From NCBI RefSeq assembly GCF_014196915.1, contig NZ_JACIEP010000001.1:186001-250000 (forward strand): a DNA stretch of 64,000 nucleotides, written 5' to 3'. Position numbers and translations under genes: made by a program. The stretch is from Dysgonomonas hofstadii. GTDB lineage: Bacteria; Bacteroidota; Bacteroidia; Bacteroidales; Dysgonomonadaceae. Below, piece after piece: positions 1,887-31,605 of this stretch (positions within the stretch are counted from its first letter, which is position 1; each line of letters begins with the position of its first letter). Below the pieces are notes generated by a model that was given only the letters and a program-made list of their open reading frames with translations, did not search any database and was not told where the DNA came from.

Positions 1887-1905
1887 AACAGAGATAAAAA
1901 CGACT

Positions 1906-3456: not shown

Positions 3457-3457
3457 G

Positions 3458-4630: not shown

Positions 4631-4636
4631 AAAGCG

Positions 4637-6109: not shown

Positions 6110-6162
6110 ATCGTAGAATAAGAAAATCTGAGACTTGCCTCTTTATTATACAAACAAAACAA

Positions 6163-6216
6163 GTAAAACTAAAATTAAATAGAGCAAAATCAATAGTCCC
6201 TTTTTATCTAAGTTTG
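6163..6216 (+). promoter_or_regulatory. HTCS-1 type operator and -7 box for the M60 gene (site A)
   Basis: Half-sites GTAAA (6163-6167) and GCAAA (6184-6188) are direct repeats spaced 21 bp. Exactly 20 bp follow, then TAAGTTTG (6209-6216), a perfect TAnnTTTG -7 box. The expected transcript start is about 25 bases before the ATG. The same layout recurs at 8048, 14589 and 21074. Confidence 0.7.
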
Positions 6217-6248
6217 TTAGCTCAAATATCGAAATAACCCAGCTAAAC

Positions 6249-7835
6249 ATGAAAAAGCGTAAAAGGAGCTATTGTATTAATCTGTTTTTTCAATTAATAA
6301 TTATTGGATCGGTATTTCCATCATTGTATAGTCATGCCAAAGGAGATAAGTTCGATCCTCTAACTATTTTTACAGATCCGTCCTGTTCGGAATTAAAAGC
6401 AGGTATTACGGCCAAAAATATTGCGAAAATATCTGATGTCTTATACAAAGATATTGCTACAAGGTTGAGTACAGGAAGATACGAAGATAAAGAATTCCGG
6501 ATACAATCATACAGGCCTTACCAAACTCCTAAGATTTCTGCTGCCAGAACAAAAACAATGCATACGTGGGGAGTATTGGATAATGTAACAGGAATATACG
6601 TGGAAAACCCTGAAGATGAACTCTGCATCCTGGTAGGAGAAACACACGGACAAGAGGTAAAACTCAGGGTACAGGACTATTCAAAAGGATGGGAAACAAA
6701 TACTGTAACTCTGAAAACGGGAATGAATAAAGTGAAACCGGGCTCAGGACTTTGTTATATTATGATTTTCCAGGACGAATATATTCCTTTGAATCCGGAA
6801 ACTGATGTTGAAAAAAGAGAGATACAGTCTAAAAATGTGAAAATCCATTTTGCCACAGGAAAGGTAAATGGTTATTATGACATTGCGAAGAATAAAGGAG
6901 AAGATTCCGGATGTCTTTTAAGTAAAGCAAAATATCCATACTTTGATGTGAAAGGGAAATATAGTCAACTGGCATGGTATACCGAAGATTTTCAGGAAGC
7001 AGGAACGAATCTATCTAAAACTATTGAAAGACTCGATCAGCTGGTTGGTTTGGAGATAGACTTTTCAGGGCTTTTCAAATATGGAAAATCTTTTAGTACA
7101 AGGATGTTCTTTATGCCTTCAACCAATGGAGGAGGAAACCCTAATGCCACAGTAGAGAGAGTTATTTTCCCCAGGGTATATAAAAATTTCTTCGCCAATC
7201 CCGATAGTGATACATTCATGAAGCGTATATGGGGGCTTGCTCATGAAGTAGGGCATTGTAGCCAATCCAACCCGGGAATGAGATGGGGTGGAATGGGGGA
7301 AGTAGGGAATAATATATTCTCTATGTACGTGAAAACGCAACTTTACGGATATGAGAAAAGCAATATGCTGGCAGAAGGATATTATGAAAAAGCAAAAGCT
7401 CTTATAATAGATAAGAATCTGGCGCATGCAGATATGAGCATTATTACCAGACACTTCGAAAGACTTGTTCCGTTCTGGCAGTTGCATCTCTATACAGCGG
7501 AGGTAAAAGGATATAAAGATCTTTATAGAGACCTGTATGAGCATTATAGAACGACTCTGAATGTAGGTACGACTTTTGAGAACAGTGGTGCTCTGCAACT
7601 GGATTTTGTTCGCAATGTTTGTCATTTGTCGAAAACAAACCTGATAGATTTTTTTAGAAAATGGGGATTTCTTACTCCTGTTAATGTTGTGATAAATGAT
7701 TATGGAAAAAGGACATTGAAGATAACTCAACAAGAAATAGATGCATTGGTGGTTGAAATAGAATCAAAGAATTATGAAAAGCCGGTGAAAGATATTACCA
7801 GTATACGAGATGATAATTTCTTCCAGTTCAGATAA
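6249..7835 (+). CDS. M60-like (enhancin/mucinase-type) zinc metalloprotease, secreted
   Basis: M60-like peptidases cleave heavily O-glycosylated proteins such as mucins. The signal segment covers roughly residues 1-30 (a basic KKRKR start, then a hydrophobic stretch ending YSHAKG). The zinc motif HEVGH is at 332-336 and the downstream Glu of HExxHx(8,28)E is E351 (GGMGEVGN), with the NNIFSMY segment expected of gluzincins of this clan after it. The N-terminal ~200 residues contain a beta-rich region (VLDNVTGIYVENPEDELCILVGE) as in M60-like proteins. Length is 528 residues with no obvious CBM32. It carries its own HTCS-1 type promoter and a strong terminator, so it is a single-gene unit in the regulon. 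Whether the target is animal mucin or a plant glycoprotein is unknown. Confidence 0.85.
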   Translation: MKKRKRSYCINLFFQLIIIGSVFPSLYSHAKGDKFDPLTIFTDPSCSELKAGITAKNIAKISDVLYKDIATRLSTGRYEDKEFRIQSYRPYQTPKISAARTKTMHTWGVLDNVTGIYVENPEDELCILVGETHGQEVKLRVQDYSKGWETNTVTLKTGMNKVKPGSGLCYIMIFQDEYIPLNPETDVEKREIQSKNVKIHFATGKVNGYYDIAKNKGEDSGCLLSKAKYPYFDVKGKYSQLAWYTEDFQEAGTNLSKTIERLDQLVGLEIDFSGLFKYGKSFSTRMFFMPSTNGGGNPNATVERVIFPRVYKNFFANPDSDTFMKRIWGLAHEVGHCSQSNPGMRWGGMGEVGNNIFSMYVKTQLYGYEKSNMLAEGYYEKAKALIIDKNLAHADMSIITRHFERLVPFWQLHLYTAEVKGYKDLYRDLYEHYRTTLNVGTTFENSGALQLDFVRNVCHLSKTNLIDFFRKWGFLTPVNVVINDYGKRTLKITQQEIDALVVEIESKNYEKPVKDITSIRDDNFFQFR

Positions 7836-7901
7836 AATGATTATATAATTAATGAGAAGTAGTAACAGATATTATGGTTTTTAAGGTAAAACACTACTTT
7901 C

Positions 7902-7940
7902 CTGGCAGTTTCAATGTCACTCTTGGAACTGTCAGTTTTT
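7902..7940 (+). terminator. Rho-independent terminator after the M60 gene
   Basis: An 11-bp stem (CTGGCAGTTTC pairing with GGAACTGTCAG, with G-U pairs) is followed directly by TTTTT, 66 bases after the M60 stop. The rest of the 328-base gap before the metzincin gene holds an A+T-rich stretch and the operator at 8048-8101. Confidence 0.85.
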
Positions 7941-8047
7941 AATATGATTCTGTCCTTGAATAAAGATTTTCAAGTAATCATGTAATAAGTCAATCAGTTA
8001 TCACTTGTACATTATTATATTAAACTTTCGAACGAATGTCATTTAGA

Positions 8048-8101
8048 GCAAGATAATAAACAATTTCAGCAAGCTGATTTTTAGAAATCTTACTTTATTT
8101 G
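8048..8101 (+). promoter_or_regulatory. HTCS-1 type operator and -7 box for the metzincin gene (site B)
   Basis: Two identical GCAAG half-sites (8048-8052 and 8069-8073) are spaced 21 bp. Twenty bases follow, then TTTATTTG (8094-8101), one mismatch from TAnnTTTG. The segment between the half-sites, including ACAATTT, nearly matches that of site C at 14589. Confidence 0.72.
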
Positions 8102-8163
8102 TGTGTTAAAAAGTGTCAACCTTGACTATACTATTTTATAATATAAATTAAAGACTTTTATCT

Positions 8164-10287
8164 ATGAAATTGAAAAACAAGCCAACTTTACTTTTTATAG
8201 TAGGCATCTTATTATGTGGATTCTTTTCGTGTAGTGATGACAGTATGTCGCTACCGGAACAAAAAATCAATGTTGCCCGGGTGACAGATGTCATATTGAC
8301 CCAAGCGGTGAATGGCGGAGAGTCTCTGGAACTGAATGACGTAAATGCGGAAATAAATTTCGTTTCACAACTCACATTTGACAACAAACTTAATTTATGG
8401 TCTAATCCTACATTGGAACAGACTTTTGCCGGCGCATTTGATATTGAGAAAGAAAATGTAACTATTGTTAATGACAAAGACGTTAAGATAACCTCGGCTG
8501 ATATCACCGTGGATGAGAACAATAGGCTGAAAATAGCCTTTACCAAAGTCGATAATTCTTATAGTTACATGGAGTCATCTACAATCACAATCTCTGTGAA
8601 GGCCGGACTCAAAACAGACTTAACGGATGATGATTTAGGTGTGCTTGCCAGTACCGGATATAACGGACAGGCTACGTTTTATGGAGAAAAAGCCGATCAG
8701 AATATTAAGTCTAATTTTGTCTCGGTAACTTCTAAAATACAACTTTCGGAACCATATACAATAAAAGGTGACCTGAACAATGATAAATATAAATATCAAC
8801 TCAATGTTATTTACTTCATTCCAAGTGACATAAAGGCAAATCCGAATTTCCAGAGACGTATCAGCACAATTTTGCTTAAACACCAATTGTTTGTAATGAA
8901 ATGGATGAAGTATTGGGGATATGAAGAAAAAAGCTTTGGTTTGCCGCTCGACGAGAACGGCATGGTGAAAGTTGTTGTCGTAAACGGAAAAGAAAAAAAA
9001 GCAGATTATCCTTACGACTCGAGTATAAGTGTACCTAAAATGAAGGCCGAAGTAGAACAGCATTATACAGATAATAATCTCACCTGGTATAGTGAACATA
9101 CGCTTATTGTAACAGCAACCAATGGCGATGTTTCTGAAACTCCTTTCTACGGATCGGGGAAATGGTGTTATGCTACAGATTATGAAGGTATGGCTTACGA
9201 ATTATATAATATAGATCCTATCACGGGAGAAGCAATAAATCCGACACCTCTCACAACAAATCTGATAGGAGGATTATTGCATGAACTTGGACATGGACTG
9301 AACGCTCCGCATGTAGGACCTACCCTTTCACAAAAGAATGATTCGCAGTTCGGTATATCTTTGATGGGATCGGGTAACACAACGTATGGTAAAAAACCAA
9401 CGTTTATGCATCATACGACTGCGGCCATAATGAATAACTGCCAGCTATCGGCTACTACTGACAAGACATATTATGAAACAACTACCGGGGCAGTAATACT
9501 TGAAGACCCGATTATAGATGGAAATAATGTTACCGTGAAAGGTTCTTTCACCGCATCGCGTACTGTAACAGACGTAATCGTGCGTTTCTATAACTCAACC
9601 GAAACATTTTTGGGAGGATCATCAGGTTACACCAGTGTGGCCTGGGTAGCAAAACCGGACGGGAACAAATTCGAAATTACAGTACCTATCAGTGAACTGA
9701 GTGTAAATACTTTCAAATATAAAGTAGGCGCAACTATTCTGATGGATAATGGTACTACGGCAAGTGTGAGTCTGGCTAGTATCTACAGGCAGGAAAACAA
9801 TACCCTTGTATGCGAAACTGTAAAGAATGACGGTACATGGGCAGTAATTACTTCGCATTCTATTCCTGTTGACGATGTTGCAAACAATTTTGCAGCTGGT
9901 CTGGTAGACGGAATTAGTACTACTTATATGGCATTGGTAAAACCAGGTAAGACTTATGGCGGAGTAACCGTAGCAGCAACAGAAAGTGTATGGTTTACTG
10001 TAAACTTCAAAAAGCAAACTGAGTTTAATACGATAACAGTCGTCAACAGAAACTTTAATGTTATCCTGAATCCAAAAACCGTATCGTTTTACGGAAGTAA
10101 TACAAATAATGGTACTGACTGGGTGGTAATAAAGAAAGATGTCGATCTTCCTGATAATAAAACGAATACTATTATATTGGATACGCCGGCAAACTACCAG
10201 TACCTGAAAATGACATACGACAAATGGGATACTAGTGGTGGAAGTACAATGCAGATTACTGAACTGGAATTACTAAATACGAAATAG
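8164..10287 (+). CDS. Metzincin-like zinc metalloprotease lipoprotein with C-terminal F5/8 (discoidin) domain
   Basis: This 707-residue protein begins with a lipoprotein signal (LLCGFFSCSDD), so it is probably surface-anchored. Residues about 35-170 look like an Ig-like beta domain. The central domain has HELGHGLNAPH, which fits the metzincin zinc motif HExxHxxGxxH except that Asn replaces the usual Gly. A Met-turn-like segment (GISLMGSGN) follows, as in metzincins. The C-terminal ~150 residues resemble an F5/8 type C carbohydrate-binding domain (VSFYGSNTNNGTDW, STMQITELELL), with an approach segment (LVDG...ALVKPGK) shared with the lipoprotein at 31606. It has its own HTCS-1 type promoter. 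It probably works with the M60 enzyme on glycoproteins; the exact MEROPS family is not resolved. Confidence 0.78.
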   Translation: MKLKNKPTLLFIVGILLCGFFSCSDDSMSLPEQKINVARVTDVILTQAVNGGESLELNDVNAEINFVSQLTFDNKLNLWSNPTLEQTFAGAFDIEKENVTIVNDKDVKITSADITVDENNRLKIAFTKVDNSYSYMESSTITISVKAGLKTDLTDDDLGVLASTGYNGQATFYGEKADQNIKSNFVSVTSKIQLSEPYTIKGDLNNDKYKYQLNVIYFIPSDIKANPNFQRRISTILLKHQLFVMKWMKYWGYEEKSFGLPLDENGMVKVVVVNGKEKKADYPYDSSISVPKMKAEVEQHYTDNNLTWYSEHTLIVTATNGDVSETPFYGSGKWCYATDYEGMAYELYNIDPITGEAINPTPLTTNLIGGLLHELGHGLNAPHVGPTLSQKNDSQFGISLMGSGNTTYGKKPTFMHHTTAAIMNNCQLSATTDKTYYETTTGAVILEDPIIDGNNVTVKGSFTASRTVTDVIVRFYNSTETFLGGSSGYTSVAWVAKPDGNKFEITVPISELSVNTFKYKVGATILMDNGTTASVSLASIYRQENNTLVCETVKNDGTWAVITSHSIPVDDVANNFAAGLVDGISTTYMALVKPGKTYGGVTVAATESVWFTVNFKKQTEFNTITVVNRNFNVILNPKTVSFYGSNTNNGTDWVVIKKDVDLPDNKTNTIILDTPANYQYLKMTYDKWDTSGGSTMQITELELLNTK

Positions 10288-10322
10288 AAAGAGTTAAGAG
10301 GATTAATTTAATATTTTGACCG

Positions 10323-10355
10323 GTCCTGAGTAAGCGTTATAAGTTTATTCAGGAC
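10323..10355 (+). terminator. Hairpin after the metzincin gene
   Basis: An 11-bp stem (GTCCTGAGTAA pairing with TTATTCAGGAC, one G-U) lies 36 bases after the stop. An outer CCGGT/ACCGG pair could extend it. The T tract is poor, so termination is likely but not certain. Confidence 0.55.
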
Positions 10356-10433
10356 TAGTTAATTGTAAGAACCGGAAAAATATATTATTTTTAATATATC
10401 ATTCCATCGGAATTAGTAAAAACTGTACAGTAC

Positions 10434-10441
10434 TTAGTTTG
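10434..10441 (+). promoter_or_regulatory. Candidate -7 box for HTCS-1
   Basis: TTAGTTTG, one mismatch from TAnnTTTG, lies 48 bases upstream of the HTCS-1 start. No GCAAR direct repeats are seen here, so the regulator gene does not appear to be autoregulated through the same operator. Confidence 0.3.
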
Positions 10442-10489
10442 TTTTATTGGGGAGTTCAATATTTCCTTTTTTAGAAAGAATCAATATTT

Positions 10490-13400
10490 ATGCGTTTTAT
10501 AATAGCTCTGTTTCTGGGATTTATGTCTATCCTATCGGCTAATTCTCAAATTGATTATAAATTTCGGACCCTTTCTCCCGGGGGAGGGTTCTATTATGAT
10601 GGAGTCAGCCGTATCGAACAAGATAAGGAAGGGTTTATTTGGGTGCTTATGGCAAACGAATTATATCGTTTCGATGGCTATCAATATAAACGATATCATA
10701 GTTATTTCAAAGAAATGGAAGACTCTGTCAGATGGTCATTTGTAAATATGGCATCTGACTCGAAAGGAAATTTTTATGTAAATACAAATAACGGACTTTT
10801 TATCTACGATGGCATTCAGGATAAATTTGATAAGATATTTAACCCTGTTGATCATGTAAGGGTCGATGGAAGGGATAGTGTCTGGATAAAGGTCGATAAC
10901 CGGTGGAGTCTACTCGATACAAAGAGCGGAAATCTCACCACACCCTTGTATGACGGGGAGTCGCTATCTATGATTGGTAATATTTTCTGTACACATGGTG
11001 ATGATCTTTACTTATTCTCAAATTATAGCCGTATTTACCGTTTCAATTATATAAAAAAAGAATTCCATCTTTGTTCCAATATGCCATATGCCGATGGTGT
11101 TATTTCATATGCAAGAGCATATAAAGGCAAGCTTTGGGTACTGAAGCATAAGTATGGACTATTTAAAATAGATTTATCCACATTCGCAATAGAAGAACGC
11201 TTCGACCTTTTTAACGGTGATAATGCTACACAGGTGAGAACTTTCTTTATAGATAAGAATGGTTGTATATGGGTAGGCTCGTTGTCAGGATTAGATATAT
11301 TTGATCCGGACAAGAAGATGTGGACACAGTTTACTCATTCAGAAACAGATTTTTTTAGCTTGCCCAATAATTCTGTATGGGCAATAAATGAAGACAGGCA
11401 AAAAAATATTTGGATAGGAACATATTCGGGATTACTTTCTTATGTAAACCTTGATGAAAAAAAGGCATTTAAGACATATACTCCCCGGAAGAATCAACTG
11501 AGCCATATACCTGTAAGCGCATTTGCCGAAGATGATAATTTCATATGGGTGGGAACCGAAGGTGGGGGTATAAATCAAATAAGTAAGACTACAGGTGAAT
11601 TTTCATATTATAAAAGTACATTGGGAAGTAAAAAGATAACTTTTGATAATATAAAATCCATGGTGGTCGACAAAGATAAAAACCTTTGGATAGCAATGTA
11701 TACCGGAGGGCTTGATTGTTACAATACAAAAACAAATCAGGTAAGAAACTTTAGATCTCGGAAAGACAGTAATTCTTTGTTGAATAACAATATCCGTAAG
11801 ATTATAAAAGACGGGGATTTGGGGTTGTGGATTATATATCAACAACAAAAGACAATAATATCCTTCTATTCATTCAAAGACAATTTATTCTATCATTATG
11901 ATATCGATGGTGAAAATGAGACTCGGTATCTATTTGATATTCTCCGTTCAGGAGAAGACCAACTGTGGACGATCACAAATAAAAAGCTTTATCGGATGAA
12001 CACAAGAGATCATTCGGTAGATGTTATGCAGCAGAAAGATTCTACTTTCATGGACTTTAATACATTCTGCCTCGATGATTCAGGCAACATATGGATAGGT
12101 ACTATCGGAAACGGCTTGGTAAGATATAATCCCAGTAAATCTGAATTTACTCTCTTTTCCGAAATATTGAAATACAATATATATTCAATATTCAATATTT
12201 GTTACGATGACGAGGGTAATCTTTGGATGGGAACAGATAATGGACTGATAAGATATAATATAAAGAAAGATCATTATTCAAAGTATGATAAGGGTGATGG
12301 TGTCCAAGGGCAGGTATATTATCCTCTGGCAGCGATGAAAGGTCTGAATGGAGACTTGTATTTTGGAGGCACCAATGGCTTTACAATTGTGAATCCTAAA
12401 AATATTCCTCACAATACTTACAAACCGAAAGTTATAATTTCTGAACTTTTGATAGACCATAAACCATCAAAATTAAATTTTATTCCTAACGATTCTTTAG
12501 GTTTAAAAAATGAACTTGTTCTTAATTATTCTCAGGCTAATTTCGGATTCAGATTTTCTTCAGATAACTACCTGATTCCGGAAAAAAATCACTACAAATA
12601 CAGGCTCAGAGGATATGATGATCGCTGGATAGAAGTGAATGCTTCCAATCGTGTGGCACTTTATTCCAAAGTGCCGGCAGGAACTTATTATTTTGAGGTT
12701 TTGGCAGCTAATAACGATGGGGTCTGGAGCGATCATCCCACAATAATAAAAATTATTCGTAAGCCTGCACTATGGCTCAGTTGGCCTGCTTATATCTTGT
12801 ATACCATAATTATTTGTGGTATAATATTTATGATCCTCCGTTACTATTATGAGAAGAAAAAGTTAAAGAACCAATTGTATCTTGAAAATCTGGAAAAAGA
12901 GAAAAAAGAACAAATACATCAGGCTCAATTAAGATTTTTCACTAATATATCTCACGATTTCAGAACCCCATTATCTCTTATCTTGGCGGCCTTGGGCCGG
13001 TTGAGGCAAGAAGGATTAAAAGAATATTATTATAGAATATTGAACAGTAATGCCCAGCGGCTATTGAATCTGATAAATGAGTTGATGGATTTCAGAACCG
13101 TTGAAAATGGTAAGATGAAGCTGGCTATAGAAGCTTTTAATGTAAATGAATATGTCGAGAAATTGGCATTGGATTTTACCGATTATGCCAAACAGCATAA
13201 TATTACATTCAATATAATTAAGGACAAAGGAATGCCTCGGGAAGTTTATGCAGATAAACATCTTATAGAAAAAATCGTTATGAACTTGTTAAATAATGCT
13301 TTCAAATATACAAAAGAAGGAGGAACGATTTCAATAGAAATATTATCAAACTCTGATGTGTTTTCATCTCGATATGAGAATCAATATACGGTAAAGAACG

Positions 13401-14548
13401 AAGAACTGTTGGTTTCTCCTTTTTCAATTGTCGTCAGAGATTCAGGGGTAGGGATATCCAAAGAATCTATTTCTAATGTGTTTGAGCGTTTCTATAAAGT
13501 AAATACTGTAAATACAGACTCTCATTTGGGAACAGGCATTGGCCTGGCTTTGGTGAAAAGTATAGTTCTGCTTCATAAAGGTACAATCTCTATATATAGC
13601 GAACGGGACAAAGGTACTGATATGGAGGTGAGGTTGCCGCTGGATAAATCTGTTTATGAAGATTCTGAATTCTTAGTGAAAGTAGACGATATAGAATCCA
13701 TTGATACAAATCCGATAGAGGATAATGATTTAGAGGAAGAGGGAGGATTAGTTGAGGAAGAAACAGTCCTGCTTAGAGATAAGAAGCGGGTTTTACTTGC
13801 TGAAGATAATAATGATTTAAGAATTTTACTGGCTGGAGCTTTATCCGATAATTATGAAGTTATTGAGGCTGCAGATGGTCTAATCGCGGAGGAATTTATT
13901 AATGAGATGGAGATTGATCTCATAATAAGTGACATAATGATGCCGTTCAAGGATGGGGTAACATTATGTAGAGAAGTTAAAAATGATATTAAAACCTCTC
14001 ATATCCCATTTATTCTTCTTACCGCAAAAAATAGTGTAGAAAGTAAAATAGAAGGAGCCGGCTCGGGAGCCGATATTTATCTGGAAAAACCAATAGATAT
14101 CAGTTTTCTGATACTATCTGTACAAAATATATTCAAACATCAGCAACAGTTGAAAGAATATTATGCTAAAAACTATTTTGTTGATAGTGCTGAATTATCT
14201 ACAAATGAACATGATAACAAATTCTTGAAAAAATTTGTTGAAATTATAGAAGCAAATATAGATCAGTCGGAGATGGATGTGAATTATATTGCATCTCAGT
14301 TATTGATGAGCAGGAGTAAATTGTATACTAAGATTAAATCGTTAACCGACAAGTCTATTGTGGAATTCATTTTGAGTCACCGGATGAGAAAAGCCGCCCG
14401 AATGATAATAGAAGAAGATTTGACTATGCGTGAAATAATGGCTCATGTCGGGATTGAGAGTCAATCTTATTTTACAAATGCTTTTAAGAAAGAGTTTGGA
14501 GAAACCCCGACAGCTTTTGCTGCGAAGCATAGGAAAAAGAATAAATGA
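10490..14548 (+). CDS. Hybrid two-component system regulator (HTCS-1)
   Basis: A one-protein sensor and transcription factor of the Bacteroidota HTCS type, 1352 residues. Order: signal segment 1-20; periplasmic two-component propeller repeats to about 690 (many W(I/V)G blades such as IWVGSLSGLDIF, IWIGTYSGLL); a Y_Y_Y domain to about 760; one membrane helix near 764-786; HisKA with phospho-acceptor H822 in NISHDFRTPL; HATPase with DSGVGIS and GTGIGLAL; REC with D1148 in IISDIMMP; and a C-terminal AraC-type helix-turn-helix pair. Family members bind an oligosaccharide in the periplasm and activate a nearby PUL. The surrounding genes share a direct-repeat promoter element (6163, 8048, 14589, 21074), inferred to be its binding site. 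The ligand is unknown. Confidence 0.95.
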   Translation: MRFIIALFLGFMSILSANSQIDYKFRTLSPGGGFYYDGVSRIEQDKEGFIWVLMANELYRFDGYQYKRYHSYFKEMEDSVRWSFVNMASDSKGNFYVNTNNGLFIYDGIQDKFDKIFNPVDHVRVDGRDSVWIKVDNRWSLLDTKSGNLTTPLYDGESLSMIGNIFCTHGDDLYLFSNYSRIYRFNYIKKEFHLCSNMPYADGVISYARAYKGKLWVLKHKYGLFKIDLSTFAIEERFDLFNGDNATQVRTFFIDKNGCIWVGSLSGLDIFDPDKKMWTQFTHSETDFFSLPNNSVWAINEDRQKNIWIGTYSGLLSYVNLDEKKAFKTYTPRKNQLSHIPVSAFAEDDNFIWVGTEGGGINQISKTTGEFSYYKSTLGSKKITFDNIKSMVVDKDKNLWIAMYTGGLDCYNTKTNQVRNFRSRKDSNSLLNNNIRKIIKDGDLGLWIIYQQQKTIISFYSFKDNLFYHYDIDGENETRYLFDILRSGEDQLWTITNKKLYRMNTRDHSVDVMQQKDSTFMDFNTFCLDDSGNIWIGTIGNGLVRYNPSKSEFTLFSEILKYNIYSIFNICYDDEGNLWMGTDNGLIRYNIKKDHYSKYDKGDGVQGQVYYPLAAMKGLNGDLYFGGTNGFTIVNPKNIPHNTYKPKVIISELLIDHKPSKLNFIPNDSLGLKNELVLNYSQANFGFRFSSDNYLIPEKNHYKYRLRGYDDRWIEVNASNRVALYSKVPAGTYYFEVLAANNDGVWSDHPTIIKIIRKPALWLSWPAYILYTIIICGIIFMILRYYYEKKKLKNQLYLENLEKEKKEQIHQAQLRFFTNISHDFRTPLSLILAALGRLRQEGLKEYYYRILNSNAQRLLNLINELMDFRTVENGKMKLAIEAFNVNEYVEKLALDFTDYAKQHNITFNIIKDKGMPREVYADKHLIEKIVMNLLNNAFKYTKEGGTISIEILSNSDVFSSRYENQYTVKNEELLVSPFSIVVRDSGVGISKESISNVFERFYKVNTVNTDSHLGTGIGLALVKSIVLLHKGTISIYSERDKGTDMEVRLPLDKSVYEDSEFLVKVDDIESIDTNPIEDNDLEEEGGLVEEETVLLRDKKRVLLAEDNNDLRILLAGALSDNYEVIEAADGLIAEEFINEMEIDLIISDIMMPFKDGVTLCREVKNDIKTSHIPFILLTAKNSVESKIEGAGSGADIYLEKPIDISFLILSVQNIFKHQQQLKEYYAKNYFVDSAELSTNEHDNKFLKKFVEIIEANIDQSEMDVNYIASQLLMSRSKLYTKIKSLTDKSIVEFILSHRMRKAARMIIEEDLTMREIMAHVGIESQSYFTNAFKKEFGETPTAFAAKHRKKNK

Positions 14549-14588
14549 TAGAGTTTGATGCTGTTTTTCTGCCGTATAAACGGAAATG

Positions 14589-14642
14589 GCAAAATAAATA
14601 ACAATTTGAGCAAGACTAAATAAGCCTGTGAAGATAACTTTG
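14589..14642 (+). promoter_or_regulatory. HTCS-1 type operator and -7 box for the GH105-GH2-GH29-GH109 operon (site C)
   Basis: GCAAA (14589-14593) and GCAAG (14610-14614) are spaced 21 bp. Twenty bases follow, then TAACTTTG (14635-14642), a perfect TAnnTTTG. The expected transcript start, near 14649, supports translation from ATG 14674 rather than TTG 14659. Confidence 0.75.
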
Positions 14643-14673
14643 TTTCCGGTATTTTACTTTGCAGAAGATAATT

Positions 14674-15819
14674 ATGGCTGGAAAAACACGCATTGTCGTC
14701 TTAATTTTACAATTAATCTTTTTACTTAATTCATGTGGTAATTCACAAGGGTCTTATTCTGTGGTTACAGAGAAGGAGATAGTCTCTGTAGCTAGAAAAG
14801 TCATATCGTGGCAACAAAAGAATTTTACATATAAGCAAGAAGGAAATCTTCACGATTATGGAATAGATGCATGGACAAATGCTGTCTTGTATTTAGGTAT
14901 GGAAGAATGGGCAAAAACAGTAGACGACGAATCCCTTTATACCTGGTTATATTCTATCGGGGAGAAAAATAATTGGCAAATACCTGCCAATTTTAAGGAT
15001 TCCCCTAAATATCAGTTATATCATGCTGATGAATTGTGCATAGGTCAATTTTATCTTAATATGTATCAAAAATATGGAGATAAAAAGATGCTCGATTCTG
15101 TAAAAGAACGTATCGATTGGATTATAAATAATCCTCCGGACACAAGTATGGTTTATAAAAATAAACAAACATGGTCATGGTGTGATGCCTTGTTCATGGC
15201 TCCTCCTGTCTATTTAAGATTATATTCTATAACTAACGATTCAAAATACCTCGAATTTATGGATGAACATTTCAGAGCTGCGTATAATCATTTGTATGAC
15301 AGTGATGAAGGGTTATTCTTCCGTGATGATAGTTATTTCGATAAGAAAGAAAATAATGGAGAAAAGGTATTCTGGGGTCGTGGCAATGGTTGGGTTGCTG
15401 CTGGATTGGCGAATATTTTGAGATTATTACCCGCCACATCAGAATACAGACCGTTCTATGAGAAATTATATATAGAATTATGTTCAAAACTGGCTGGTAT
15501 GCAAAATAGCGACGGCTTTTGGCATGCCAGCCTTCTCGATCCGGAGAGCTATCCTTCTCCAGAAACCAGCGCAACAGCTTTGATAACGTATGCTTTAGTA
15601 TATGGTGTCAACGAATCATTGCTCGATAAGGAACGCTATTTACCTGTGGCAATGAAATCATGGGATGCGTTGAATTCCATAGTCAACAGAAAAGGAAAAC
15701 TTGGCTGGGTACAACCTATTGGTGCCGATCCTAAAAAAGTAACAAAAGATATGACTGCTGTTTATGGGGTGGGAGCGTTCTTGCTGACTGCCACTGAAGT
15801 ATATAAACTGCAAAAATAA
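14674..15819 (+). CDS. GH105 unsaturated glucuronyl/rhamnogalacturonyl hydrolase-type lipoprotein
   Basis: First gene of a four-enzyme operon. The ATG at 14674 gives a compact lipoprotein signal (IVVLILQLIFLLNSCGN); an in-frame TTG at 14659 would start only about 10 bases into the predicted transcript. The (alpha/alpha)6-barrel is recognised from TWSWCDALFMAPPVYLRL (likely catalytic D171), GRGNGWVAAGLANIL and ETSATALITYAL. Length is 381 residues. It differs clearly from the pectin-operon GH105 at 3458, so a different unsaturated uronide is likely; GH105 members from arabinogalactan-protein loci are a precedent. No polysaccharide lyase is visible in this regulon, so the source of its substrate is unclear. 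Confidence 0.85.
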   Translation: MAGKTRIVVLILQLIFLLNSCGNSQGSYSVVTEKEIVSVARKVISWQQKNFTYKQEGNLHDYGIDAWTNAVLYLGMEEWAKTVDDESLYTWLYSIGEKNNWQIPANFKDSPKYQLYHADELCIGQFYLNMYQKYGDKKMLDSVKERIDWIINNPPDTSMVYKNKQTWSWCDALFMAPPVYLRLYSITNDSKYLEFMDEHFRAAYNHLYDSDEGLFFRDDSYFDKKENNGEKVFWGRGNGWVAAGLANILRLLPATSEYRPFYEKLYIELCSKLAGMQNSDGFWHASLLDPESYPSPETSATALITYALVYGVNESLLDKERYLPVAMKSWDALNSIVNRKGKLGWVQPIGADPKKVTKDMTAVYGVGAFLLTATEVYKLQK

Positions 15820-15839
15820 AACTCTGAATATATAGAGCC

Positions 15840-17999
15840 ATGAAAAAAATAATACTGAACCTTTTCCTTCTGAATTTTATAATCGTACTGTCTGTTACAG
15901 GTCGCGATGTAATATCTTTCAATGATGGATGGAGTTTCAAGAAGGGACCATTTACTAAAAGCGCTACTTTATTAACTGATGACCAGGTAGGGGGTCAATG
16001 GCAGGAAGTGACGATCCCACACACATGGAATGCTAAAGATATGCAAACAGATTTGGCTAATATGTCATGGATTCGCAATCCTCAGGAGCGTTTCTATACA
16101 GGAGAGGCCATGTATAAGAAAACATATACACCGGATAGTGCCTTAATAGACAAAAGGATTTTTCTTCGTTTCGAAGGTGTGGGTTCTGTCGCAAGCGTTT
16201 ATGTAAATAATCAATATGCAGGGAAACATCTGGGTGCCTATTCTGCATTTGCTATCGAGATAAGCTCTCTTCTGAAGTATGGGGAAGAAAATGAAATTAT
16301 AGTTTTAGCCGATAACACTCCCCGTCCCGATGTAATCCCCGTTAATAATGTACTCTTTGGTGTCTATGGCGGTATCTATCGGGATATAAACCTGATTGTT
16401 ACAGAAAAAGTAAATATTGCTGTGGATGATTATGCATCGGCAGGTATATTTATATCACAGAAGGAGGTAAATTCTAAATCGGCAAACGTAACGATAAAAA
16501 CCAAAATAGATAACAAAACTTTCAGGAAGCAGCACATTAATCTTGTCACTACCATCTTCGAAATGGATGGAAAAACCGTCAAGGCCAAAATGGAATCACT
16601 GGTAACATTGCCTACTCAGGGAAGACAATTCCTTGAACAAGATTTTTTAATTAAAAAACCACATTTGTGGCAAGGACTGGAAGATCCGTATTTATATAAA
16701 GTCGTTACTCAGATTGTCGATGACGGTCAAATCCTTGACCAAATTATGCAGCCTTTAGGACTTCGTCACTTCGAACTGAAAACAGGAGAGGGGATGTTTC
16801 TCAACGGGAAAAAGGTCCCGATGTATGGGACATGTCGCCATCAGGATTGGTGGGAATTAGGAAGCGCATTAAAAAAAGAACACCATGATAAGGATCTGGA
16901 AATCATAAAAGAAATGGGTGCCACGACAATTCGACTTGCTCACTATCAGCAAGCCGAATATATTTATGCCAAATGCGATAGTATAGGGTTTATTGTATGG
17001 GCCGAAATACCTTTTGTAAATAGTGTAAGTACACTGGAAACAGAAAATGCAAAGCAACAGTTAACAGAACTTATCCGTCAGAATTATAACCATCCATCCA
17101 TATATGTATGGGGATTGCATAACGAAGTATATAAGCCTTTTCAGCAAACAATACCTTTGACTACGACGTTGCACGATCTGGCAAAAACGGAGGATCCGTA
17201 CAGGTATACAATATCTGTTAGCGGGTACAATGCCATAGATGCTACAGCCAATAATAATGCCGACATACAGGGAATTAACCATTATTTTGGTTGGTATGGC
17301 GGTAAAATAGGGGACATAAAGGACTGGGCCGAAAAAATAGAGAAAGAGTTCCCGGATCATAATGTAATGTTTTCGGAATATGGTGGCGAGGCAAATATTT
17401 ACCAGCAAAAAGAAGATGTTGGTGAAATCGGGGATTGCTGTGGATTCGACAAAAAATATTATGAGACTTTTGGGACTAAGTTCCATGAGATACAGTGGGG
17501 AATAATTTCTCAGCATCCATATATTCTGGCTTCTTATATTTGGAATACTTTCGACTTTGGCACTCCCCTCTCTTCTCAAGGAGGTATACACTCCCGCAAT
17601 ATGAAAGGTCTGGTAACATTCGACCGTAAAACTAAAAAAGATCCTTTTTACTGGTATAAAGCAAATTGGAGTAAAGAGCCGGTACTGTATCTTACTCAAC
17701 GCAGAGCCGATCAGCGGGAAAATGAAAACACATCAGTAACCGTATATTCTAATACAGGTACTCCCCGCTTATATATAAATAATACGGAAGTTACCGATTT
17801 CAGTAAGGGTACTACCCCTGTTCACTACATTTTCAATGTTGTGAAACTTAAAGAAGGGGAAAATATCATCGAAGTCAAAGCTAATGATAACGGACAAGAA
17901 TTATCGGATAAAATCATTTGGTATTATTCTCCTGAAAACAAGAAGAGTGCCAGTTCTGAACAACCTAAAGAAAGAACAGAAGAACATATCGGACTATAA
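15840..17999 (+). CDS. Glycoside hydrolase family 2 (beta-galactosidase/beta-glucuronidase type)
   Basis: A 719-residue secreted exo-glycosidase with a ~20-residue signal ending VTGRD. Domain order is the GH2 sugar-binding domain (WQEVTIPHTWN, LRFEGVGSVASVYVNN, FGVYGGIYRDI), an Ig-like domain, then the TIM barrel. Catalytic residues are acid/base E429 in WGLHNEV and nucleophile E513 in MFSEYGGEA. A C-terminal Ig-like region follows the barrel, ending in a charged tail (KSASSEQPKERTEEH). It starts 20 bases after the GH105 stop. GH2 covers beta-galactosidase, beta-glucuronidase and others; the short sequence motifs do not settle which. Confidence 0.9.
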   Translation: MKKIILNLFLLNFIIVLSVTGRDVISFNDGWSFKKGPFTKSATLLTDDQVGGQWQEVTIPHTWNAKDMQTDLANMSWIRNPQERFYTGEAMYKKTYTPDSALIDKRIFLRFEGVGSVASVYVNNQYAGKHLGAYSAFAIEISSLLKYGEENEIIVLADNTPRPDVIPVNNVLFGVYGGIYRDINLIVTEKVNIAVDDYASAGIFISQKEVNSKSANVTIKTKIDNKTFRKQHINLVTTIFEMDGKTVKAKMESLVTLPTQGRQFLEQDFLIKKPHLWQGLEDPYLYKVVTQIVDDGQILDQIMQPLGLRHFELKTGEGMFLNGKKVPMYGTCRHQDWWELGSALKKEHHDKDLEIIKEMGATTIRLAHYQQAEYIYAKCDSIGFIVWAEIPFVNSVSTLETENAKQQLTELIRQNYNHPSIYVWGLHNEVYKPFQQTIPLTTTLHDLAKTEDPYRYTISVSGYNAIDATANNNADIQGINHYFGWYGGKIGDIKDWAEKIEKEFPDHNVMFSEYGGEANIYQQKEDVGEIGDCCGFDKKYYETFGTKFHEIQWGIISQHPYILASYIWNTFDFGTPLSSQGGIHSRNMKGLVTFDRKTKKDPFYWYKANWSKEPVLYLTQRRADQRENENTSVTVYSNTGTPRLYINNTEVTDFSKGTTPVHYIFNVVKLKEGENIIEVKANDNGQELSDKIIWYYSPENKKSASSEQPKERTEEHIGL

Positions 18000-18019
18000 A
18001 TAAATTACATATCTAAAGA

Positions 18020-19549
18020 ATGAAGAAAACGATCTTATTATCTATCATCTTTTGTTTTATCTTTTCAATATCAATTTTTGGACAGGAAAAAAAGGTAAAA
18101 GAAGATATCCCATTAAAACATGGAGCACATCGCATAGGTAAACGTACAGATGCCTATATGCAGCATTGGCGCGAATATGGACTGGGGCAATTTATCCATT
18201 GGGGAGTATATGCTATACCAGGAGGACAGTGGAATGGAAAAACAACCCAATATGCAGCCGAGTGGTTTCGTACTTCTGGATTGATTTCCAAAGAAGAATA
18301 TGATAACCTCTATAAAGAATTTAACCCTACTGGTTTCGATGCGAAGCAATGGGCTAAAATGGCGAAGCAAATGGGTGCCCGATATATGATCTTTACAACG
18401 AAGCATCATGACGGGTTTTGTATGTGGCCAAGTAAATATACGGACTATACCATTGCCAACACTCCATATAAGAAAGATATAGTGAAGGAACTTGTCGATG
18501 CATATACTGAAGAAGGTATCGATGTTTATTTGTACTTTTCAATTATAGACTGGAGTCATCCGGGATATGTCTCTGGTGGAAATATCAATTCTGCTGATAT
18601 AAAGAAAATGTATCAGGAAGGTAAAAATCATAATCCTTTTAAAACGGAAAGGCAAGCTGGACTTTATGAAGAATTTAAAACTTTTACCCGCAACCAGTTA
18701 TTTGAATTGTTAGATGATTATCCGCAGATAAAAGGGCTTTGGTTCGATGGTTCCTGGGATGTAGCCTGGGTAAAAAACGCCGGTTGGGTCGATACATTAG
18801 GACTTGAGCTAAGAGAAAAACATCCCGGGCTTATAATAGGAAGCCGTTTCCGCTCCGATGAATTCGGTAACAGACACGAAGACGCAAATGGTTATTTAAT
18901 AGATGATTATGATCAACGTTATGAACGGAATCTTCCAAAAGACCTGAAAGAAACGAAAGGTTTTGACTGGGACTGTGTGATGACAATCCCTGAAAATCAG
19001 TGGGGTTACCATCGTGATTGGACGCTGACATATATTAAAACTCCTTACGACCTGATAGGGATGATAGTCCAGGCAAACTCATTGGATGGCAATTTTGTAA
19101 TCAATTTTGGCCCTGATGGAAAAGGAAACTTCCGTCCGGAAGAAATCAGTATTGCAAAGGAAGTAGGGAAATGGATGTCGGTGAATAATGAAGCTATATA
19201 TGGCACCCATCATTCCATACTGGAAAAACAGGATTGGGGCTATTCAACGCAGAAGGATAGTTATATATATCTGACAGTACTTAACAAGCCAATGAATAAC
19301 TTACTGAAAGTAAAAGTACCGAGAAGTAAGACAAAAGATATGATCTATGTTATAGAAAATGCTCAATATCTATCGACGAAGAAAGTTGCTAAAATTCAAG
19401 ACGGAGGAAGAGATAAATTTGGATCGGTTTTTTATGACATAGTGATACCGAAGGATATTCAGAAACTTAACGAACCTTTTGTGATAAAAATTAAATTGAA
19501 AGAGGTCAACAAAGGAGAAAAAGATGCTTACCAGCAAGCGATAACCTGA
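18020..19549 (+). CDS. Alpha-L-fucosidase, GH29
   Basis: Removes alpha-linked L-fucose from oligosaccharides. The signal peptide ends SISIFGQ. GH29 features: FIHWGVYAIPGGQW near the N-terminus, FTTKHHDGFCMWPSKYTDY, and the nucleophile D243 in KGLWFDGSWD. A beta-sandwich C-terminal domain runs from about residue 390. At 509 residues it has no extra CBM. It begins 20 bases after the GH2 stop. Together with GH2 and GH109 it forms a set suited to trimming O-glycan-like or arabinogalactan-protein side chains; that functional reading is inference. Confidence 0.92.
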   Translation: MKKTILLSIIFCFIFSISIFGQEKKVKEDIPLKHGAHRIGKRTDAYMQHWREYGLGQFIHWGVYAIPGGQWNGKTTQYAAEWFRTSGLISKEEYDNLYKEFNPTGFDAKQWAKMAKQMGARYMIFTTKHHDGFCMWPSKYTDYTIANTPYKKDIVKELVDAYTEEGIDVYLYFSIIDWSHPGYVSGGNINSADIKKMYQEGKNHNPFKTERQAGLYEEFKTFTRNQLFELLDDYPQIKGLWFDGSWDVAWVKNAGWVDTLGLELREKHPGLIIGSRFRSDEFGNRHEDANGYLIDDYDQRYERNLPKDLKETKGFDWDCVMTIPENQWGYHRDWTLTYIKTPYDLIGMIVQANSLDGNFVINFGPDGKGNFRPEEISIAKEVGKWMSVNNEAIYGTHHSILEKQDWGYSTQKDSYIYLTVLNKPMNNLLKVKVPRSKTKDMIYVIENAQYLSTKKVAKIQDGGRDKFGSVFYDIVIPKDIQKLNEPFVIKIKLKEVNKGEKDAYQQAIT

Positions 19550-19574
19550 TTAATAAACAAATACAACAATAACA

Positions 19575-20990
19575 ATGAGAAACAATTTATTTTTACTCAG
19601 CCTCTTCATGCTGCTTAGTTTAGGGATCTCCTCACAGGGGATTATTAAAACCCCTGTTCCGTCGCGTCCTTCAGGACAAACCGATGTTTTAGAACTGCGA
19701 TGCGACCCTCTTCCTACCGTCCGTGTCGGTTTTATCGGGTTAGGTATGCGTGGCAAAGGCGCCGTAAACAGATTTATGGCCATAGAAGGCGTTGACATAA
19801 AAGCCCTCTGCGACCTGGAACAATACAATCTGGATGGGATGCAGGAATCGATAGCCCAACAAAACCGTCCCGAAGCAGAAGAATATACCGGGCAGGACGG
19901 ATGGAGGAAATTATGTGAGAGAAAAGATTTAGACCTCATATATATCTGCACCGACTGGCTGACCCATACTCCTATGGCTGTTTATGCAATGGAACAGGGA
20001 AAACATGTTGCCGTAGAAGTCCCTGCCGCCACGACACTTGATGAGTGCTGGCTGCTGGTCAATACAGCAGAAAGAACACGCCGCCATTGTATGATGCTAG
20101 AAAACTGCTGTTACGATAAATTCGAGCTGGCCACCCTGAATATGGCCCAACAAGGCATTTTCGGAGAAATCGTCCATGTAGAAGGCGCATATATTCATGA
20201 TCTCCGTTCCTTAAATTTTAATTCCCGTACATCCCGAAAAGAATCGTATGAACCGGGAATCGGCCAGACCAAACAGAAAAGTCCTGGACTGACAGGCTAC
20301 TGGGACTTCTGGCGAAAGAAATACAATATAGAACATACGGGCAATGTCTACCCGACCCACGGATTAGGTCCTGTTTGCCAGATACTGAACATACATCGCG
20401 GCGACAAGATGGACTATCTTGTATCAGTCTCATCCAACCAGTTTGGGATGAGCGAATACGCAGAAAATCGTTTTGGCAAAGACTCCCCGGAAGCACAACA
20501 AGATTATAAGATGGGCGATATGAATGTAACTCTCATCAAAACACGAAAAGGCAAAACCATGATGATCCAGCACGATGTGACCAGTCCGCGTCCATACAGC
20601 CGCATCCATATGGTTAGCGGTACACAGGGCTTTGCCCAGAAATGGCCATCAACCCAGATTGCGTTAAACAGTCACAGCGCCTTGCCGAAAGCAAAAATGG
20701 ACTCAGTCCTACATGTTTATGAACATCCGTTTTATAAAGAAGCGGGCGAACAGGCAAAGAAACTGGGCGCTATCGCCCATGGTGGTATGGACTATATAAT
20801 GGATTACCGTTTGGTGTATTGCCTGCGAAACGGGCTGCCTTTAGACCAGGATGTCTACGATGCAGCAGAATGGTCTTGTCTAGTACCCTTGACAGAGTTA
20901 TCAGTGAATAACAATGGATCCCCTGTCGAAATCCCTGACTTTACACGGGGTGCATGGGATAAAATCAAAGGTCTCAAATTCGCAAAGTAA
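19575..20990 (+). CDS. GH109-type Gfo/Idh/MocA oxidoreductase-like glycosidase (alpha-N-acetylgalactosaminidase type)
   Basis: GH109 enzymes use a bound NAD+ to hydrolyse alpha-GalNAc by transient oxidation. A signal peptide ([20 protein letters not shown]) is followed by a Rossmann fold, [14 protein letters not shown] (glycine motif near 53-60), then [12 protein letters not shown] and the [11 protein letters not shown] segment with H262, the position of the family's proposed catalytic His. Length 471 residues matches Bacteroidota GH109 proteins. It is last in the GH105-GH2-GH29-GH109 operon, 25 bases after GH29. Its DNA is visibly richer in G+C and C-ending codons than its neighbours, so a separate origin is possible. 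Family is confident; substrate is inferred from the family. Confidence 0.87.
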
Positions 20991-21073
20991 ATATAGTAAA
21001 AGCTCTTTAGATATATAATTCTATGTTTGAGATGTTTATGTGTATCTTTCTAATGGTGCTTTATGGAATTAGA

Positions 21074-21127
21074 GCAAAAGAAATGTTTAAAACAGTAAGA
21101 TAAATGATTTGTGTAATCATATTTTTG
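21074..21127 (+). promoter_or_regulatory. HTCS-1 type operator and -7 box for the SusC operon leader (site D)
   Basis: GCAAA (21074-21078) and GTAAG (21095-21099) are spaced 21 bp. Exactly 20 bases follow, then TATTTTTG (21120-21127), a perfect TAnnTTTG. This copies the geometry of sites A-C. The predicted transcript start near 21134 leaves a leader of about 645 bases before the first SusC. Confidence 0.65.
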
Positions 21128-21327
21128 TGAATAAATATTAACCGAATTAAATCAAATTAAAGAGTAAAGCTTAATTATCTGTTTTTAACTATGCGGTAAT
21201 TTTAAATTATAAAAATATCTTCCAATTGACAAATCTCAATCCGATACTATGCATATAATAACAAAAAATAGGACAGGTTTAAAAACCATTTTCTCTACTG
21301 AAAATTTGGTTGTTAACCATATTTTGT

Positions 21328-21395
<68 letters not shown>

Positions 21396-21442
21396 AAGAA
21401 TTTTTTTAATAAGAATAACTCTCACATATATTATATTTATAG

Positions 21443-21489
21443 CATACCATGTTTAGAGTGATCATTTTGATTGCTCTAAACATGGTATG
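21443..21489 (+). terminator. 16-bp perfect hairpin in the SusC leader
   Basis: CATACCATGTTTAGAG (21443-21458) pairs perfectly with 21474-21489 across a 15-base loop and is followed by a short T run (TTTTATT). It would end transcription from site D unless read through, and could work in both directions. Confidence 0.75.
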
Positions 21490-24652: not shown

Positions 24653-24664
24653 TCTCTTTAGAAT

Positions 24665-26455
24665 ATGAAAAAATATATATATTTATTACTTCTCTGTTTC
24701 CCTGTTCTGTTTTTGGCATCCTGTAACTCCTTTGAGTCAGAGCCTCTGAACTATAATTCAGAAGACAGGGTGTTGAATCCGGGCGATTCTACAGACAACA
24801 GTTCTATAAAGCAGTTATTTTATGCATCTTATTTAAACTTACCGACTTTGCATAACCGTCTAGGCAACTCTTATCTTGATGCTGCTACCGACGATGCTTT
24901 GCCTACAGCTACTAATACTACTTTAGATTATTTCCGTAATAACCTTGTTTCGGCCAGTAACCTTCCTGACGGAACAGCATGGGCCAGCGGTTATCAGGGT
25001 ATTCGGCGTGTAAACCTGTTTTTGAGCAAGGTGGGTATATTTCCTCCTTCAGCACAGGTTCCGGCAGATTATATTAAACAGATGAAGGCAGAAGCACGCT
25101 TATTGCGTAGTTATTATTATTTCGAGATGCTAAAACGTTGGGGCGGTGTTCCATTTCTTGGTGACAGAGTTTTGACTGCCGATGATGATCTTAATATTCC
25201 TCGTGCCAGTATTCAGGAAATTGCTGATTATATTACCAATGAAATAAGCCCTGATGTAGCCGGATCTTGTTACGACGATTTACATCCTGCTCAATCTGTT
25301 GCAAATGATGATGATCCAGACAATCAGGGAAATATGATCGGGCATGTGAATCAGGGTGTAGCGTTAGCTCTTCTTTCGCGGTTGCACTTATATCTTGCCA
25401 GTGATTTATATAATGAAGGCCAGAGTGGCAGTACGATAAGTAAATGGCAGACAGCAGCAAGTTGGGCAAAACGTTTAATTGATTTAGGTGTCTATGATCT
25501 TTATGTCAACACATCGGCTCCGTTTCGTCAGTTTGCGATGGAGTCAAGTGATTTTCCCAACAAGGAGATGATTATGGTTAAGCTGGCGGGCAGTCCTACC
25601 GTAGGGCTGGATCAATACAATGGTCCGACAGGTTATTCTTATACTACAGCTTCGGGATTGGTTAACACCTATGGATATACCAGCCCCAGCCAAAATTTGG
25701 TGAATGCGTTCCTGACATTGGATGGAAAATCTATTTATAAAGATTATGATCCTCAACAAGGATATGATCCTTCATCAGGATATGATGAACAAGCTCCTTA
25801 TACTAATCGCGATCCACGACTTAAACGTTACATTTTCACTAACGGCGATACATGGTTGAAAACTACAGTGGAAACATTTGACGGTGGAGCAAACCGTGGA
25901 GCCCAACAAAATTTGAATTATACACGTACCGGCTATTACTTGAAAAAATTTCTGGGTAATGGAGAAGATGTAGTAAATTATACGGCATATTACCGCCATT
26001 ACCAGATCATGCGTTATGCAGAAATTCTACTGAATTATTCTGAAGCTATGAACGAGTCAGAACCGACGAACGATACCGAAATTGTGTACGGGTTAATAGA
26101 ATTACGTAAGCGCGCAGGGATCAAGGCCGGAGACGATGGACGTTATGGTTTACCTGCAATCGGGACATACAATCAGGAACTAATGAGGAATATTATCCGT
26201 AACGAGCGGCGTATAGAGCTTTGCTTCGAAGAACATCGTTTCTGGGATATTCGCCGTTGGAAAATCGCTGAAGATGTGATGAACAAACCAGTGAAAGGAG
26301 TAAGAATTACTAAAGAAGAAGATGGAACATTTACTTATTCTTATGAGGACGCAGCTTCTTCTTCTTTCCTTCCGCACATGTACTGGTATCCGATACCGAG
26401 AGTTGAGCTGTGGGGGAATAATGCTCTGGAACAAAATCCTGGCTGGTCATATTAA
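24665..26455 (+). CDS. SusD/RagB-like glycan-binding lipoprotein (first pair)
   Basis: A surface lipoprotein that caps its SusC partner and helps deliver glycans. The lipobox is LFLASCNSF, with the Cys near residue 20. SusD hallmarks are the helical repeat region MKAEARLLRSYYYFEMLKRW, the PRAS segment and the C-terminal RKRAGIKAGDDGRYGLP, NERRIELCFEEHRFWDIRRW and a final NPGWSY. Length 596 residues is normal. It begins 12 bases after the preceding SusC. Confidence 0.95.
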   Translation: MKKYIYLLLLCFPVLFLASCNSFESEPLNYNSEDRVLNPGDSTDNSSIKQLFYASYLNLPTLHNRLGNSYLDAATDDALPTATNTTLDYFRNNLVSASNLPDGTAWASGYQGIRRVNLFLSKVGIFPPSAQVPADYIKQMKAEARLLRSYYYFEMLKRWGGVPFLGDRVLTADDDLNIPRASIQEIADYITNEISPDVAGSCYDDLHPAQSVANDDDPDNQGNMIGHVNQGVALALLSRLHLYLASDLYNEGQSGSTISKWQTAASWAKRLIDLGVYDLYVNTSAPFRQFAMESSDFPNKEMIMVKLAGSPTVGLDQYNGPTGYSYTTASGLVNTYGYTSPSQNLVNAFLTLDGKSIYKDYDPQQGYDPSSGYDEQAPYTNRDPRLKRYIFTNGDTWLKTTVETFDGGANRGAQQNLNYTRTGYYLKKFLGNGEDVVNYTAYYRHYQIMRYAEILLNYSEAMNESEPTNDTEIVYGLIELRKRAGIKAGDDGRYGLPAIGTYNQELMRNIIRNERRIELCFEEHRFWDIRRWKIAEDVMNKPVKGVRITKEEDGTFTYSYEDAASSSFLPHMYWYPIPRVELWGNNALEQNPGWSY

Positions 26456-26481
26456 AAACACTATAAAAAACACTCAGATAT

Positions 26482-29703: not shown

Positions 29704-29715
29704 TACTACTATAAT

Positions 29716-31566: not shown

Positions 31567-31605
31567 TTTAGAATTTAAAGTTATGCATTATATAATTATA
31601 GATAT

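Follow-up and report, generated by a model that had tools for sequence, protein, structure and literature searches.

We identified four promoters that share one operator design in a 64,000-nucleotide stretch of the Dysgonomonas hofstadii genome (contig NZ_JACIEP010000001.1, positions 186,001 to 250,000; hereafter the window). These operators (sites A-D; Table 1) are very probably the binding sites of the hybrid two-component system (HTCS) regulator encoded among them at 10490-14548, which would make the genes that follow them a single regulon. The sites precede genes for an M60 peptidase, a second metalloprotease-like protein, a set of glycosidases, and an importer, and a single sugar-sensing protein probably turns on the proteases, glycosidases, and importer together. 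An earlier, sequence-only reading had proposed this regulon, and genomic comparison supports that proposal well through the sites themselves, their geometry, their conservation, and their co-occurrence with orthologs of the HTCS. A pattern read by eye has thereby become a regulon with operators predicted at the level of single bases.

In all four window sites, as read directly from the DNA, two GYAAR half-sites are spaced 21 bp apart as a direct repeat, and 20 bp separate the end of the second from a TAnnTTTG-like box (25 bp when counted from the first letter of that half-site). This common geometry was found at the positions where it had been described, and the word ACAATTT noticed in the spacers of B and C is present in both. 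The original wording of the motif, GCAAR half-sites with a TAnnTTTG box, needs some correction: GCAAR accounts for six of the eight half-sites and GTAAR for the other two, while the box is complete at A, C, and D and carries one mismatch at B, where an alternative placement 2 bp downstream is equally good. When aligned, the half-sites read A-G-Y-A-A-R-A-Y, with A at column -1 in 7/8 and at column +5 in 7/8. The consensus for Bacteroides primary-sigma promoters, as given in passages of PMC7366714, has TAnnTTTG at -7 and TTTG near -33. A -7-like box is present at all 27 sites that we tabulated from the window and related genomes (6/6 letters in 21), and with a half-site-to-box gap of 20-21 bp the position of the proximal half-site fits an overlap with the upstream promoter element.

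The sequence-only reading had argued that an exact spacing repeated four times makes chance unlikely, and tests inside the window agree. When a matrix built from any three of the sites is used to score all 127,887 positions on both strands, the remaining site comes out first (4/4 cases). Four positions in the window match the consensus with at most one mismatch, whereas 60 first-order Markov windows average 0.017 such matches (maximum 1); with at most two mismatches there are five, against an average of 0.72 (maximum 4). Among 961 geometries scanned (spacing 10-40, box distance 10-40), only (21,25) gives three exact or four near-exact matches, and an off-register control pattern with 21 instead of 20 unspecified bases has 57 matches, none of which corresponds to A-D. 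These tests share the weakness that the consensus was derived from the four tested sites themselves, and independent evidence was therefore sought in a whole-genome profile and in sites of relatives outside that profile. An autocorrelation of the promoters of 39 loci, in which lag 21 was richest in G+C-containing repeats (12, followed by lags 14 and 15 with 9), includes the regulon's own loci without an independent control, and we draw no inference from it.

The profile was built from 16 sites, four from the window and 12 from relatives. In the complete D. hofstadii assembly (5.04 Mb), A-D are the top four matches (E 2.1e-8 to 5.5e-7; all four are in the profile). The fifth, which is outside the profile, lies on another contig at C7:71107 (-71157) with 24.8 bits and E 1.4e-4; its half-sites are 21 bp apart, its box is at 25 bp, and it precedes a second M60 gene, encoding a 700-residue protein and adjoined by a TamB-like gene. 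The other 31 of the 36 matches have E values of at least 0.024, and the pattern is thus not one that turns up at random positions genome-wide. With this unlinked M60 gene as a fifth unit, the predicted regulon exceeds the four units first proposed. Two weak candidates, at C2:502309 (upstream of a GH2 gene) and C6:150944 (upstream of a DUF2264 gene), also have a spacing of 21 bp and reach only 17.7 and 16.6 bits. Above approximately 24 bits, a profile match is decisive by its score; lower scores have to be read together with gene context.

Orthologs of the HTCS (51-66% identity) are encoded in nine whole genomes (G001, G008, G009, G011, G013, G019, G020, G027, and G029, with only residues 3-717 on the contig in G020) as well as in contigs L061, L062, L063, L064 (Bacteroides oleiciplenus), and L093, where L061 is apparently the same as G008:C97. 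The helix-turn-helix (HTH) region is 66-85% identical in the orthologs and 30-40% identical in the listed paralogs. When the search was extended to these relatives, the operator recurred before GH105/GH29, SusC, GH2, and M60 genes in 8/9 searched genomes with an orthologous HTCS. Sixteen matches in the nine genomes reach 18.4 bits, 15 of them before the expected gene types. In ten searched genomes with only distant HTCS paralogs, chosen as controls from the other 51 relatives, the best match has 20.5 bits and four reach 18.4 bits. Applying the window matrix to 21 loci of relatives (356 kb) gave six strong matches for the geometry of the window sites (spacing 21, box distance 25) and four for the best of the other 120 geometries; as these loci are mutually related, the count speaks for conservation and not for independent events.

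Counterparts of individual sites were also recovered. Operator C is kept in the gap 3' of the HTCS gene in eight of the nine loci with glycosidase genes there (G011, G029, G027, L061-L064, and L093), an operator also stands before SusC genes in eight other loci, corresponding to site D, and operator A is matched before a 77%-identical M60 gene of G011. The unlinked M60 gene likewise has a 46%-identical relative in G011 with an operator before it. The SusC of G011 is 85% identical to that of the window, and the importer gene order is the same in G011 and G013. In G011, contig C9 carries the HTCS gene and GH105 operon, C6 the SusC operon, and C10 and C7 the M60 genes; in G013, the HTCS gene is on C247 and the operator targets on C121. 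Because the targets lie on contigs other than that of the HTCS, proximity alone does not explain the association. The operon 3' of operator C is itself rearranged among relatives, with GH29 first in L064 and L093 and SusC-like and M60 genes after GH105 in G027 (L155).

Of the 27 tabulated sites, 16 came from scans with fixed or nearly fixed spacing and 11 did not. The latter, all outside the profile, precede the unlinked M60 gene, SusC genes in G001, G011, G013, and G029, a GH105 gene in G013, GH2 genes in G009 and G020, and M60 genes in G011 (two) and G020. All 11 keep the 21-bp spacing; seven of them place the box at 25 bp and four at 26 bp. The full set is uniform in spacing (21 bp in 27/27), and its box distances are 25 bp (21 sites) or 26 bp (six sites). 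When neither the spacing (17-25) nor the box distance (20-30) was fixed, 21 with 25 or 26 was the single best combination in 26/27 sites, and B gave a tie.

Several observations weigh against the regulon as drawn here. One profile match (G027:C30) lies inside an open reading frame, the profile is not specific by itself at approximately 18-21 bits, where four matches fell in the ten control genomes, and scoring was limited to 150 candidates per genome. G019 encodes the HTCS and an adjacent GH105 ortholog (L153 locus) with no operator in this register and no match above 17 bits; its HTH region is 68.8% identical, compared to 66.4% in L063, where the operator is present, and divergence of the HTH region in G019 is thus unremarkable. 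Among 11 M60 genes in ten genomes, the operator precedes five and is lacking before six, and the SusC-like gene at 5262 of L063 had no match in the window-matrix scan. No operator for the HTCS gene itself is present in the scanned interval 10230-10489, and autoregulation through this motif was rejected.

The placement of the metalloprotease gene in the regulon depends on site B, and it is unlikely, though worth weighing, that B is a chance match and that only A, C, and D are real. The box of B matches 5/6 letters with its two equally good placements, and no operator was found before either full-length relative of the gene (G019 and G027), leaving the window as the sole source of evidence for B. 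On the other side, the matrix of A, C, and D only ranks B first of 127,887 positions, and B has the spacer word ACAATTT in common with C. We consider it improbable that A-D are real operators recognized by a different protein (a paralogous HTCS, for example, or some other AraC-type regulator) and that the HTCS at 10490 is merely among the targets. The genome encodes at least nine further HTCS-like proteins at E <1e-100, a second HTCS is encoded in both G013 and G008 (52-55% identity), and the motif was assigned to the HTCS at 10490 by neighbourhood and co-occurrence alone. However, the operator accompanies this particular ortholog group in eight of nine genomes and was unseen in the ten with only distant paralogs, and the second HTCS of the window is accompanied by another operator word and another box distance. 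It is scarcely credible that A-rich intergenic DNA and a consensus chosen after seeing the sites produced the entire pattern. The half-site is indeed rich in A, and the consensus of the initial tests came from the four sites, but off-register geometries fail, A-D come first in the genome by profile, and the 11 sites outside the profile precede expected gene types in other species.

Table 1. Coordinates of the predicted operators, promoter boxes, genes, and leader elements.
Feature	Position (strand)	Sequence or evidence	Context or content
Operator A	6159..6192 (+)	half-sites 6163 GTAAA / 6184 GCAAA	5' of M60 protease gene
Box of promoter A, -7-like	6209..6216 (+)	TAAGTTTG	6/6 letters
Operator B	8044..8077 (+)	half-sites 8048 GCAAG / 8069 GCAAG	5' of metalloprotease gene
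Box of promoter B, -7-like	8094..8101 (+)	TTTATTTG	5/6 letters
Operator C	14585..14618 (+)	half-sites 14589 GCAAA / 14610 GCAAG	between HTCS and GH105 operon
Box of promoter C, -7-like	14635..14642 (+)	TAACTTTG	6/6 letters
Operator D	21070..21103 (+)	half-sites 21074 GCAAA / 21095 GTAAG	5' of SusC operon
Box of promoter D, -7-like	21120..21127 (+)	TATTTTTG	6/6 letters
M60 peptidase gene	6249..7835 (+)	Pfam PF13402, E 3.4e-30	
Metalloprotease-like gene	8164..10287 (+)	HExxHxxNxxH motif and F5/8 type C domain	
HTCS gene, proposed regulator	10490..14548 (+)	domain order; orthologs at 51-66% identity	
Glycosidase operon	14674..20990 (+)	Pfam	four genes: GH88/105 family (ATG 14674), GH2, GH29-type fucosidase, GH109
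Importer operon	21779..33066 (+)	gaps 12-39 bp	SusC, SusD, SusC, SusD, lipoprotein with F5/8 type C domain
SusC leader module	21290..21489 (+)		40-bp element 21290-21329, (GA)31 21330-21391, terminator-like hairpin 21443-21489
Other element and (GA)>=12 places, own genome (G000)	C1:585025, C3:292049, C3:329059, C4:236910, C6:24116, C9:28432, C13:91036, C20:28150		

The genes behind the operators encode proteases, glycosidases, and an importer. Pfam matches bear out the earlier identification of the M60, GH88/105, GH2, GH29-type, and GH109 proteins (GH, glycoside hydrolase family) and of the two SusC/SusD pairs, which lie at 21779-31566, near the HTCS gene. The "metzincin" assignment goes no further than a motif, HELGHGLNAPH, which conforms to HExxHxxNxxH; Pfam recognized only an F5/8 type C domain in this protein. 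The HTCS itself carries a Reg_prop propeller sensor, Y_Y_Y, HisKA, HATPase_c, Response_reg, and an AraC-type HTH_18 domain in one chain. The first SusC-like protein (21779-24652) has a Plug domain match only, and the second (26482) also has a carboxypeptidase-regulatory domain. A pectinase-type operon upstream (921-6109) has no operator in 730-920, and we rejected its membership in the regulon.

We hypothesize that the periplasmic sensor of the HTCS binds its oligosaccharide, upon which the receiver domain would be phosphorylated and two AraC-type DNA-binding domains could sit side by side on the 21-bp direct repeat, two helical turns apart on the same face of the DNA. With the proximal half-site approximately at the position of the -33 element, the bound dimer would probably touch the housekeeping sigma factor and activate an intrinsically weak promoter. 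Class II activation, as with AraC, is the model for such a sigma contact from a proximal site. The M60 protease, the second metalloprotease, the four glycosidases, the double SusC/D importer, and the second M60 protein encoded elsewhere would then be co-induced. The presence of M60 proteins, a metalloprotease, glycosidases, and an importer in one HTCS regulon suggests a glycoprotein-like substrate, and if one glycan sensor does drive all three functions, this points to glycoprotein-like food for the organism.

A second HTCS gene in the window (49480-53523) offers an internal comparison. Three promoters near it, at 49287 (minus strand), 53627, and 55091, have a near-identical operator that is also a 21-bp direct repeat, built from the words AGAAT / AGAAAC, in which the second AGAA lies exactly 34 bp from a TAnnTTTG box (3/3). 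The 21-bp spacing is thus common to both systems, whereas the word and the box distance (34 versus 25 bp) differ; the 9-bp difference in register depends on which bases of the two words are paired and should not be over-read. Two HTCSs in one window that differ in these respects would allow a direct comparison of promoter geometry.

Separate from operator D, the 650-nt SusC leader contains a module composed of a 40-bp element (core consensus CTGAAAATTTGGnAGTTAGCTCTATTTTGTTA), a (GA)n tract, and a strong, terminator-like hairpin (-33.6 kcal/mol, z -9.6). The element directly precedes a tract of at least 12 GA units at 9/9 places in the D. hofstadii genome and a tract at 5/5 places examined in G011, among the matches listed. 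Searched with a profile of 14 element copies, the D. hofstadii genome gave 12 matches at E <1e-5, of which three have no more than 3-4 GA units. At E <=0.01 the profile found 19 in G003, 19 in G019, 7 in G013, 6 in G005, 5 in G011, and 1 in G029, with no match in G014, G033, G042, and G058. At least seven GA units occur at the element in 37/44 inspected loci, and in 18/37 loci the 130 nt that follow the tract fold with z <=-3, versus 5/40 control stretches. As read from translations, the genes 3' of the element encode SusC-like proteins, ECF-sigma-like proteins, and other surface proteins, including ones starting QVTIG after the signal. Tract length differs among orthologous SusC genes, at 17 (own), 29 (G003), and 8 (G019). 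In the SusC leader of G029 (L198, ~1678-1705), (CA)14 takes the place of the (GA)n tract seen in the window and G011. An Rfam scan of the SusC leader returned no match at gathering level, only chance-like ones, and among the matches listed in a literature search for (GA)n in Bacteroides, none was recognized as describing the element. An identity with the FopS small RNA is unsupported, as the passages available from PMC11697453 describe no (GA)n element. The leader may be slippage-prone or attenuating. It is conceivable, though less likely than not, that the importer is under two stacked controls, with the HTCS acting at D and the leader module changing output by tract length or attenuation; if so, only part of the population would make the importer when the HTCS fires.

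The arrangement proposed here resembles that of AraC at araBAD I1-I2, where two AraC-type domains occupy 21-bp direct repeats and the proximal one overlaps the upstream promoter element. Unlike the HTCS, AraC is a one-component sugar sensor that employs DNA looping and works with another sigma factor and promoter consensus. Also comparable are the HTCS response-regulator parts BT4124 and BT4663, which in purified form have been shown to gel-shift SusC/D operon promoters, with inhibition relieved by phosphorylation or interface changes (PMC11253607). These proteins have the same HTCS architecture but are different HTCSs, and the passages available from that report do not include base-level mapping of operators. 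In Bacteroides thetaiotaomicron, motifs were predicted for 16 of 36 HTCSs, all of them direct repeats averaging 21 bp and read as a dimer on one DNA face (Ravcheev et al. 2013, PMC3878776). The window shows the same features that mark those regulons, namely the regulator architecture, repeats of approximately 21 bp upstream of SusC/SusD and glycosidase operons close to the regulator gene, and the motif before orthologous genes, with G019 and site B as exceptions. In contrast, the combination of M60 and a second metalloprotease with GH105, GH2, GH29, and GH109 has no match among the regulons described in the passages available from that study, and the same passages, figures and supplements aside, make no mention of a fixed distance of 25-26 bp to the -7 box. 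The kind of switch is known, and this regulon and its fixed promoter register are new.

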